From positions 1,301,001 to 1,365,000 of the forward strand of contig NC_014315.1 in the NCBI RefSeq assembly GCF_000143085.1: a stretch of 64,000 nt of DNA, read 5' to 3'. The notes beneath the pieces are model-generated. The model saw nothing but the letters and a program-made list of their open reading frames with translations, did no database searches and was not told the DNA's origin. A program made the translations under genes and the position numbers. Position 1 is the first letter of the stretch, and each line of letters starts with the position of its first letter. This DNA is from Nitrosococcus watsonii C-113 (GTDB lineage: Bacteria; Pseudomonadota; Gammaproteobacteria; Nitrosococcales; Nitrosococcaceae). This document shows positions 31,493 to 34,079 of the stretch, in pieces.

Positions 31493-32596
31493 ATGGATAG
31501 CACAAAAATGAAAAAACTAGAAGAAGTTTACAAACGATCCGGGATACCTACTTACACTTTCGTTGAACCAGCGGAATACAAGTCACTTCTTGTTTCCATC
31601 CGAATCCCCGGGCGCGGAACTATTGTTGAAGGACCGTCAGGTATAGGGAAAACTACAAGCGTCTTAAAAATCATCGAATCTCTTTCTCCTGGTGGCAATG
31701 TTACGAAACTTTCGGGAAGAAATACAGATGATTATGATGTGATTGCTGCTTTACCTGAACTGGGTAATTTAGGAATAGTTCTTATCGATGATTTTCATAG
31801 ATTGCCAGAAGAAACAAAATCTATATTAGCAGATTATATTAAGAGACTTGCAGATACGGAAAACGAAAATAGCAAGATTATCATTGTAGGTATTAATAAA
31901 GCTGGACAATCTCTATTGAATTATGCTTCTGATTTGACCGGAAGGATAGATACGATTGCATTTGAATCTAATCCAGAAAATAAGGTTGAAGAGCTTATAT
32001 CGAAGGGAGAGAATGCTCTAAATATCACGATAAATATCAAGAATGAAATTATTGTAGAATCCCAAGGCAGTTTTCACTTAGCACAGATGCTATGCCATGA
32101 ATGTTGTATTGAAGCTGAAATTCTTGGGGAAATGGAACGAAAAAAAGGAACTATCTCTAGCATGGAAGTTGTTCGTGAACGAGTTCTTGGTGACTTATCA
32201 AAGACATTTTTTGAGAAGGCCAAACCGTTTGCCACAGGCCCTCGGTTACGAAAAGAGGGAAGAGCGCCCTATTTCTTTTTGCTTTATTGGCTAGCAACTG
32301 CAAAAGATTGGTCTTTAAATATATCTGATGCAATTAGAAAGAATCCCGCACATCGTAGCAGTGTAAGCCAAATAGTAGATAAGGGTTTTCTTGCTGACCA
32401 CATCGCCAAGAATAGTGAATTGCAGGATGTTATTCACTTCGATAGCCAGACAAGAGAACTTAGCATTGAAGATCCTAAATTTGTATATTTTATCAGGAAC
32501 CTGTTGTGGTCTAAGTTTTGTGAAAAAATAGGATACCGATCAGTCGATTTTGATTCAACGTATGATTATGCCCTGTCCTTCGGCTGGTGCAGATAG
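31493..32596 (+). CDS. NTPase half of an interrupted NTPase-TIR protein
   Basis: The frame encodes 367 residues: Walker A GPSGIGKTT (47-55), Walker B GIVLIDDFHRL (94-104), NKAG and Arg-containing sensor-like elements, then a C-terminal winged-helix-like region. Its last residues before the stop, FDSTYDYALSF, are the first strand of a TIR domain (YD.ALSFAG.DR). The TIR then continues in the next frame from 32582. One extra G near 32582 or 32583 explains the break, so the original protein would be about 507 residues, NTPase-TIR. Base composition is clearly more AT-rich than neighbours, suggesting transfer. The architecture is that of immune-type signalling proteins; defence is inferred. Confidence 0.8.
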   Translation: MDSTKMKKLEEVYKRSGIPTYTFVEPAEYKSLLVSIRIPGRGTIVEGPSGIGKTTSVLKIIESLSPGGNVTKLSGRNTDDYDVIAALPELGNLGIVLIDDFHRLPEETKSILADYIKRLADTENENSKIIIVGINKAGQSLLNYASDLTGRIDTIAFESNPENKVEELISKGENALNITINIKNEIIVESQGSFHLAQMLCHECCIEAEILGEMERKKGTISSMEVVRERVLGDLSKTFFEKAKPFATGPRLRKEGRAPYFFLLYWLATAKDWSLNISDAIRKNPAHRSSVSQIVDKGFLADHIAKNSELQDVIHFDSQTRELSIEDPKFVYFIRNLLWSKFCEKIGYRSVDFDSTYDYALSFGWCR

Positions 32597-33017
32597 GGTT
32601 GTTGCAGAAAAACTCTTTAGTTTTCTGGAGGAGCGTGAACTTTCGGTATTTTACGATAATAATGAGCAACATCGGATTCTTGCGGAAAACATTGAAGACT
32701 ATCTTGCGCCTATCTATCGAAGTGAAGCTTCATTTGTGATTGTTCTTCTTGGCAGGGAATACCCTAAACGAGTTTGGACCAGATTTGAATCAGAACAGTT
32801 TAAAGAACGATTCGGTGACAAAGCGATAATTTCAGTATGGTTTAGCGACGTATCTCCAGGGATATTCGATGAGACCACCAAGTATGGCGGAATTAAATTT
32901 GACTATTCTAAACAATTAGACAGTGAAATTAAGCGAATAGGTGAGTTACTTTGTCAGAAGATCGTCGAGTATAAGGAGTCCAAGCAGGCGTTGCAGTCAA
33001 CTGGGCGGTTAAAATGA
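32550..33017 (+). CDS. TIR-domain half of the interrupted NTPase-TIR protein
   Basis: After the shift point the frame reads SAGADRVVAEKLFSFLEE, matching TIR box 1 after the F of the other frame, then LSVFYDNNEQHRILAENIEDYLAPIYRSEASFVIVLLG and PKRVWTRFESEQF. The Glu in that last stretch is in the position of the catalytic glutamate of bacterial NAD-cleaving TIR domains. The C-terminus is a short helix. The open frame starts at a TTG, but the true N-terminus is in the upstream frame. As given, the TIR would be made only by frameshifting or internal initiation. Confidence 0.8.
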   Translation: MIQRMIMPCPSAGADRVVAEKLFSFLEERELSVFYDNNEQHRILAENIEDYLAPIYRSEASFVIVLLGREYPKRVWTRFESEQFKERFGDKAIISVWFSDVSPGIFDETTKYGGIKFDYSKQLDSEIKRIGELLCQKIVEYKESKQALQSTGRLK

Positions 33018-33020
33018 ATT

Positions 33021-33310
33021 GATCTATACACCGGAATTCCGGGCCAGAGGTTGCTGGGCGGCTGGCGGTTGTGAAAAGAATCTCGGCGGCATGAGTAGGG
33101 AGGGCGTTGGCGGTTCTGGAAGCAGAGATCAAGCAGCTGCGTTAGGGTCTGGCAGAGGTGCGTATTGGGGCGGAAAATCTTAAAAAAAGAGTGGCGCCAT
33201 ACTTTGCTGGGAAGTCGCTTCCCGGCACGTGTTCATGAAGATAGTGACAGGGCTATCCCATGTAAGTGATGGTGCGAGTTCTGGAGGCTTCTCGCAGTGG
33301 ATTTAAGAGT
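33021..33310 (+). pseudogene. IS3-family transposase remnant (orfA and start of orfB)
   Basis: Short in-phase pieces of IS3-type OrfA are visible: IYTPEFRAR at 33023, LEAEIKQLR, a stop, then GLAEVRIGAENLKKRVAPYFAGKSLPG to 33235. A second piece, GYPM then VMVRVLEASRSGF (about 33250-33310), matches the beginning of OrfB. Stops and shifts interrupt all of them and the catalytic DDE part is missing. The remnant lies four bases after the TIR gene stop, consistent with arrival of the island through mobile DNA. Confidence 0.65.
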
Positions 33311-33425
33311 TCCGGCGTCGTTAATCAAAAAGCAGGAGGATTATCCTTCCTTTTGGGGATTTAGCAATTTCTTTATTGAAGCCATGGCTCATTCATATCT
33401 ATTATCTACCAGTAATAGAAAAAGC

Positions 33426-34079
33426 CTATAACTTCATGGTGAAAAAAACTTCCGCAAAGACTCCTTGAGGGGTGTTTTGTTGTGGATCGGCAAAGACTGC
33501 CCGCCAGCGATTAAGCCCCAAAATCCCTTCTCCATAGGGGATGGAGGCAAGTTGACTTTTGTGTTCTCCTATCGCCTGCATTTTTTTCCCTATCTGGTCA
33601 TCGATATATTCAAGGCGATCCCAACGGGGGAATAATCCCCACACCTCATAGGCCCATAGGGCGTTTATGGATAGGGGTGTTTCTTCAATACATTTTCGGG
33701 TCAGTTGTCCCGCCAGCCGGTGGGTAGGATGCCGGTCCCAGTGATCGTGGAGGGAATAGACCTCTTCAGGCTGAAGCCGCATGATGAGCTCGCTAAGCTG
33801 ATCCTTTGCTGAATGGTAATGGGAAGTGTTTTTTAGATCAGGGAGATCAAAGAAAATAACTTCGTTGATTCCTAATACTCCCGCCGCTCGAGTGGCCTCT
33901 TGTTTACGAATATCTACCAAAGTTTCTTCCGGCCAGCCAAAGGGATTGGGGCTTCTTCTCCCATCGGTTAAAATGACCGAGGTAATATGGCAACCCGAGG
34001 CCGCTTTTTTAGCCGCGGTCCCCCCCATGCCAATTTCCATGTCATCCGGATGGGCGCTGATGATCAGGGTTTGATTCAT
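33426..34079 (-). CDS. PIG-L family deacetylase (LmbE-like)
   Basis: The 217-residue zinc hydrolase shows the family motif SAHPDDMEIGMGGTAAK near the N-terminus and the second His motif DHWDRHPTHR. PIG-L proteins remove N-acetyl groups from sugar amides such as GlcNAc conjugates. The substrate is not known. The gene overlaps the preceding membrane protein gene by 38 bases on the same strand, suggesting co-transcription. Confidence 0.88.
   Translation of the reverse strand: MNQTLIISAHPDDMEIGMGGTAAKKAASGCHITSVILTDGRRSPNPFGWPEETLVDIRKQEATRAAGVLGINEVIFFDLPDLKNTSHYHSAKDQLSELIMRLQPEEVYSLHDHWDRHPTHRLAGQLTRKCIEETPLSINALWAYEVWGLFPRWDRLEYIDDQIGKKMQAIGEHKSQLASIPYGEGILGLNRWRAVFADPQQNTPQGVFAEVFFTMKL

Follow-up and report, generated by a model that had tools for sequence, protein, structure and literature searches.

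A gene at positions 31493–33017 of the window (the 64,000-nt stretch of Nitrosococcus watsonii C-113 contig NC_014315.1 analysed here) is probably a horizontally acquired, single-gene defence module of phage/plasmid type that has been inactivated by a recent one-base frameshift. Two pieces in displaced frames, 31493–32596 (+) and 32550–33017 (+), make up one protein, a P-loop NTPase followed by a TIR domain. The displacement is one base, near 32,581–32,583, and is located inside TIR box 1. An earlier note on this DNA had read the region as one low-GC NTPase–TIR gene in two frames, probably transferred and defence-like, and this core reading survived the tests made.

Sequence features

Residue counts refer to the 24 full-length homologues described in the next section.

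31493..32596, + strand: N-terminal part, with an AAA+-like P-loop NTPase, a winged-helix-like region and the first TIR strand; the frame closes a few codons past the joint
31631..31657, + strand: Walker A, GPSGIGKTT; Lys in 24/24
31778..31798, + strand: Walker B, VLIDDFH; the two Asp and the His are invariant (24/24)
31886..31897, + strand: candidate sensor 1, VGIN; Asn in 20/24, the putative role drawn from what is known of AAA+ proteins
31943..31945, + strand: Arg at a place suiting an AAA+ arginine finger, a putative role; 24/24
32267..32497, + strand: predicted winged-helix-like region in the NTPase–TIR interval, transferred from the model of homologue L002 as secondary structure only
32550..33017, + strand: TIR domain forming the C-terminal part, read in the shifted frame; 28.3 bits with Pfam TIR_2 (cut-off 28), homologous from ~32583
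32561..32597, + strand: split TIR box 1 (YDYALSF / AGADR), site of the one-base displacement
32649..32705, + strand: FYDNNEQHRILAENIEDYL, a region that we take to be the BB loop; Asp of FYD in 24/24
32775..32789, + strand: WTRFE motif with a candidate catalytic Glu, presumably the equivalent of the known TIR catalytic Glu; Trp and Glu in 24/24, the catalytic role suggested by TIR NADases
33101..33304, + strand: decayed IS3-like remnant (end of orfA / start of orfB) with stops and frame changes
33309..33428, + strand: 3' stub (~last 40 codons) of a SWIM zinc-finger gene, which congener G369 has in full

The joined protein and its homologues

Frame 1 (31493–32596, 367 aa) has the C-terminal end YDYALSFGWCR*, and the shifted frame (open 32550–33017, 155 aa) continues as AGADRVVAE. 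The two frames overlap by 47 bases. The earlier proposal that YDYALSF and AGADRVVAE rebuild TIR box 1 is borne out by the homologues. When aligned separately to 7, and later to all 24, full-length homologues, the pieces meet in TIR box 1 with zero residues lost, the Phe at the joint being read in frame 1. The joint is crossed by one open frame in 24/24 homologues, and the TIR frame of the window has no stop codon. The joined length is ~507 aa, so the combined length given in the earlier note was right. Intact homologues with a continuous NTPase–TIR order, on which that note had let its reading stand or fall, were found (24/24). They also have the Walker A/B motifs and the candidate catalytic Glu that it named, since the Walker Lys, both Asp and the Glu are present in every one.

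The 24 full-length homologues are L002 from an uncultured proteobacterium MAG, L003 from a Defluviicoccus MAG, L005–L009 from plasmids of Gloeothece, Azospirillum, Curtobacterium, Acetobacter and Pantoea, L030 from genome G573, and L041–L056 from 16 viral contigs, where the gene is full-length. Loci with the ATPase part only (L010, L011, L032, L033, L036), loci with the TIR part only (L034, L035, L037, L038, L040) and E. coli copies are not counted among the 24. The gene is also intact in an E. coli P2-like prophage, where its annotated product has 508 aa. L043 and L056, equal in ORF length and in identity, may be near-duplicates.

The AAA+–TIR family is rare and scattered. Among 369 genomes of the class only the window's own genome has a match. 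In the phylum 9/398 genomes match, and both parts are found in only two of these, the window's genome and G573. A blastn search with the L047 gene finds matches in 2/5426 E. coli genomes. In 50,697 phage records tblastn (E 1e-5) gives one N-part match only, with 26.5% identity over 55% of the query, and the L047 protein has no match there. Phage carriage therefore rests on the viral contigs and prophages. A single-sequence scan of the viral contigs revealed no relative; the alignment query alone found the 16.

Domain assignment

The match of the window C part to Pfam TIR_2 (PF13676) is marginal, just above the curated cut-off, and L002 scores 32.9 bits. Pfam shows no TIR match in the window N part. 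In the family alignment TIR_2 matches 18/19 rows at E 0.001 and AAA_22 matches 15/19. The TIR domain is C-terminal, and the homologues end soon after it. A structural model of the window C frame (pLDDT 74, pTM 0.71) matches the TIR domains of RPV1 (Z 13.4, rmsd 2.4 over 134 residues), SPARTA (8ifl, Z 13.2) and RUN1 (Z 12.5). Over TIR domains including these and AbTir the values are Z 12–13 and rmsd 2.2–3.4 over 126–134 residues, and response regulators and other flavodoxin-like folds rank lower (Z 10–11). The window C part is therefore predicted to have the TIR fold.

The NTPase was modeled in the intact relative L002 (pLDDT 86, pTM 0.78). The model matches RFC and bacterial clamp loaders with Z ~15 and rmsd ~3 over ~193 residues, and the archaeal ATPase 2qen, tied with the clamp loaders, with Z 15.8 and rmsd 5.4 over 284 residues. 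Foldseek with the same model places Cdc6/ORC and RuvB on top. A viral structure library gives mostly clamp loaders and other AAA-type proteins, with low TM-scores. A sequence-profile search finds RuvB, TnsC and TIR proteins such as AbTIR; it did better than a single-sequence search of the PDB, which gave nothing convincing. In the window protein the Pfam AAA models give weak matches, all below cut-off, and the STAND models nSTAND_NTPase5 (21.8 bits, cut-off 34) and nSTAND3 (16.6 bits, cut-off 27.2) are both below theirs as well. In NCBIfam the N part has no match near a cut-off and the C part has no match.

The L002 model thus points to an AAA+ fold of the clamp-loader/initiator kind, and its predicted secondary structure fits a winged helix in the NTPase–TIR interval. 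The NTPase of the earlier note stands. A STAND assignment is not favoured over AAA+ by the model, the domain being at least as much clamp-loader/Orc/RuvB-like, and it may also be related to archaeal ATPases.

Comparison with known defence systems

The PADLOC profile PDC-S59, a candidate single-gene defence, matches the N part (residues 68–328 to profile positions 128–394 of 428, E 6.3e-20), with the TIR outside the match. It matches 7/7 TIR-bearing homologues tested, but has a much stronger match in L033, which is without a TIR (1.9e-72). PDC-S66 matches the TIR: E is 1.7e-4 for the window and 1.3e-9 for L002, and 6/7 homologues match. PHROG 6841, a family of 470 positions with no function attached, matches L043 (3.7e-87), L002 (7.5e-58) and the window N part (5.3e-53). 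The best stretch in L002 and L043 extends into the TIR; the window C part alone has no PHROG match at 0.001.

ThsB of Thoeris is a stand-alone TIR protein. It is similar to the present family in its TIR domain, and ThsB-like genes are near three of the plasmid homologues. In the AAA+–TIR family, however, the TIR is fused to an ATPase and no neighbour is conserved across the 24 loci.

TIR-NLR (TIR-STAND-TPR) proteins of P4-like satellites have, in the excerpts of Rousset et al. 2022 (PMC9122126), an N-terminal TIR, a central STAND domain and C-terminal TPRs that may act as sensor, and were tested against phages. They resemble the present protein in that one protein joins an NTPase to a TIR and is carried by phage-related elements. 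They differ in domain order, since here the NTPase is N-terminal and the TIR C-terminal, with little sequence beyond it. The N-terminal TIR and C-terminal repeat sensor of STAND-TIR (NLR-like) proteins are not found here. The P2 hotspot in the same excerpts lies between gpA and gpQ, whereas the P2-like copies of the present gene are between tail-completion and baseplate genes. SpbK, a TIR NADase of Bacillus subtilis that gives abortive anti-phage defence, has a mobile-element link and interacts with the phage protein YonE (excerpts of PMC12847820, PMC11984713), is likewise a TIR protein linked to mobile elements, but those excerpts name no ATPase in it.

No description of the AAA+–TIR architecture was found in the literature searched, which included few subscription journals. 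PMC9519451 does not use the word TIR in its main text.

Genomic contexts of the homologues

Viral loci L043, L046, L047 and L056 share most neighbours in a P2-like tail module, with no V-like ORF called in L047. In L046 the tail terminator and tail completion genes are upstream and baseplate assembly and wedge proteins are encoded downstream. The E. coli P2-like prophage has, by RefSeq annotation, a virion morphogenesis protein, the AAA+–TIR gene and baseplate V, the order seen in the L046 group. Other viral copies are found in varied places: 3' of a baseplate gene (L042, where one other tested neighbour has no PHROG match), upstream of a tape measure gene (L044), one to three kb downstream of a tail protein (L048, L050), near terminase or portal genes (L045, L049, L051; one tested L049 neighbour has no PHROG match) and near a phage-type helicase (L052). 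The sole tested neighbour is an O-acetyltransferase in L053, and in L041 it has no PHROG match. The boundaries of the viral contigs are predictions. The GC content of the gene is below that of its locus in 16/16 viral loci.

The interval that holds this cargo in the E. coli prophage (L063 7418–10227), flanked by the morphogenesis and baseplate V genes, may be another defence hotspot besides the gpA–gpQ one already published.

ThsB-like TIR genes are within ~4 kb in 3/4 annotated plasmid loci, those of Gloeothece, Curtobacterium and Pantoea. The Curtobacterium match is weak (9.5e-8), and a caspase-like gene is also near the AAA+–TIR gene there; the Pantoea copy is also near a CBASS-type phospholipase. 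The Acetobacter plasmid copy is near integrases. Within 5 kb on either side (blastp 1e-6) the 24 loci have no conserved partner gene. The recurrent neighbours are integrases and, within groups of related phages, phage genes. The low GC, the phage and plasmid contexts and the ThsB-like neighbours fit optional anti-phage cargo.

On the Pantoea plasmid (L009 6820–9145) a ThsB-like TIR gene is followed by a gene for a 538-aa protein with a C-terminal patatin-type phospholipase. The pair looks like a Thoeris-like variant.

The intact protein might instead serve the phage or plasmid itself, e.g., in taking over the host or controlling replication, its TIR being a signalling module and not for defence. 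Its NTPase fold is like that of clamp loaders and replication initiators, and many copies are among virion genes. This is nevertheless unlikely, since low GC, varied positions in phages and an occurrence also in plasmids and chromosomes are more in keeping with optional cargo than with a core phage gene, and the PADLOC candidates and ThsB-like neighbours fit defence.

The site in Nitrosococcus genomes

The GC content is 37.7% in the N part and 40.7% in the C part vs 50.1% in the window, in agreement with the low GC reported in the earlier note. The immediate gene neighbours in the window, an SBF transporter and a PIG-L gene, are not defence genes. The IS3 remnant that the note placed next to the gene is real: ~33101–33304 matches an element of a congener in broken pieces, and in that element the downstream ORF has rve domains.

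The AAA+–TIR gene has no match in the three congeners examined, which implies either a gain since the lineages diverged or a loss in the congeners. In G370, the sister species and nearest congener examined, the flanking DNA is ~90% identical to the window; the average nucleotide identity of Nitrosococcus oceani and N. watsonii is 89.3% in the excerpt of PMC7285500. The flanks are kept in G370, and between them are a TnpB-like IS605 gene, a 746-aa DNA methylase and a 174-aa ORF (L024 1883–6164). In G369 an SNF2 helicase and a SWIM-domain gene are present at the site (L025 2355–6356), and in G371 the flanks are apart. The SWIM stub in the window suggests that older genes at the site have been lost. 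The site turns over genes, and the TIR gene is located where older ones seem lost.

The 174-aa ORF of G370 has no Pfam or PADLOC match and may be a restriction enzyme.

Nature of the frame break

Both parts are equally close to the nearest relative, L002, with 239/357 identical residues (67%) in the N part and 92/138 (67%) in the C part; the Gloeothece protein has identities of 55% and 53%, respectively. Separate maximum-likelihood trees of the two parts (23 homologues and the window, with L056 dropped) each place the window as sister to L002, with support of 99/97 for the N part and of 92/93 for the C part, the latter just below the level that the tool marks with a star. The window and L002 differ at 96/55/208 first, second and third codon positions in the N part and at 44/22/78 in the C part. 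The excess at third positions in both parts indicates a protein under selection. A value of dN/dS is not available for this pair as dS is saturated. Chance is excluded by the third-position excess and by shuffling of the C part, in which 0/5000 base shuffles stay open.

Strongly conserved columns are altered in the window at 2/98 positions, compared to a range of 0 to 11 in 20 intact relatives (L009, L054, L055 and L056 were dropped from this count). Together with the third-position excess, this conservation implies that both parts were selected at the protein level until shortly before the break. The few changed columns and the TIR frame without a stop also imply a recent break or, with lower probability, an error in the sequence. 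Slow decay was considered and rejected, because the count of changed columns is within the range of intact relatives and the parts are equally conserved. The window branch is longer than the L002 branch in both trees (0.38 vs 0.21 in the N part, 0.46 vs 0.25 in the C part), a mild sign of faster change that is indistinguishable from ordinary variation.

The frameshift is seen in one assembly; were it an error of sequencing or assembly, the living strain would have an intact gene and a functional defence module. Such an error would account for the fully open TIR frame, the few conserved columns changed, the equal third-position excess in both parts and the lack of any sign of decay apart from the break. 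It is rather improbable all the same. The joint is outside any long homopolymer, the longest nearby runs being three bases. The assembly is not error-rich, since 36/38 sister-species ORFs (at least 100 aa and at least 70% identity, lower matches dropped) are whole in the window; of the other two, one matches in part and the second is interrupted by a single in-frame stop. The genome has 3,373,286 bases in 3 contigs, with a completeness of 100.

The truncated 367-residue ATPase could itself be in use, e.g., as a regulator like the natural TIR-less cousins. Such ATPase-only open frames exist, with 438 aa in Shinella (L010 4563–5879) and 459 aa in L033 (1495–2874), and L033 scores 242.7 bits against PDC-S59. 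These cousins are distant, however (Shinella 24%, G379 27% identity), and the 367-residue product terminates in a broken TIR strand, so that a use of this kind is very unlikely. In G379 (L028 6418–7660) the TIR-less ATPase cousin is in two overlapping frames, 173 + 277 aa, and may be broken too.

A regulated break, in which recoding (a +1 ribosomal shift) or the phase variation raised in the earlier note yields some full-length protein, is in keeping with two open, conserved frames that overlap by 47 bases but is hardly credible, since the joint has no repeat tract (longest run at 32560–32610, three bases), the 24 homologues need no recoding, and a shift at the frame-1 stop, not at the joint, would change the well conserved box 1. 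Phase variation was rejected for want of a repeat tract. No second copy of the gene was found in the window's own genome.

Proposed function and significance

With a recent inactivating frameshift as the preferred reading, a mechanism can be proposed by analogy with known TIR systems, as described in the excerpts of PMC9122126, PMC10952713 and PMC9503650. In an intact protein the AAA+-type ATPase (Walker A/B, candidate sensor 1, candidate Arg finger) and the winged-helix-like region would sense a ligand linked to infection, probably nucleic acid or replication machinery. ATP-driven assembly on this signal would gather the C-terminal TIR domains, and the invariant Glu of the clustered TIRs would cleave NAD+. 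The loss of NAD+ would starve or kill the infected cell (abortive infection) and exclude competing phages. We infer sensing, assembly, NADase activity, abortive infection and the loss of function in the window from this analogy. In the window the main product would be a TIR-less 367-residue ATPase with the NADase arm lost, and a loss of the effector is expected because the frame-1 product is without nearly all of the TIR.

A broader reading of the intact family, offered here tentatively as a possibility that falls short of an even chance, is that it represents an uncharacterised immune class. In this class a clamp-loader/initiator-like AAA+ domain with a winged helix would gate a C-terminal TIR NADase and read foreign replication structures. 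It would be a single-gene cargo of temperate phages, with an insertion place in P2-like phages between tail-completion and baseplate genes.

The window gene belongs to a scattered AAA+–TIR family that has been little described, and is a broken copy, of modest interest alone and better as a lead to the family. The N. watsonii copy shows how such a gene is lost where congeners have other genes. NTPase-gated TIR enzymes connect bacterial anti-phage defence with plant and animal immunity, and here the NTPase is no less similar to DNA clamp loaders or origin-binding ATPases than to NLR-type switches, and the domain order is reversed. If intact copies defend, they would provide a one-gene system for how an ATPase like those of the DNA machinery activates a TIR, and would add another place in P2-like phages that is used for defence cargo.
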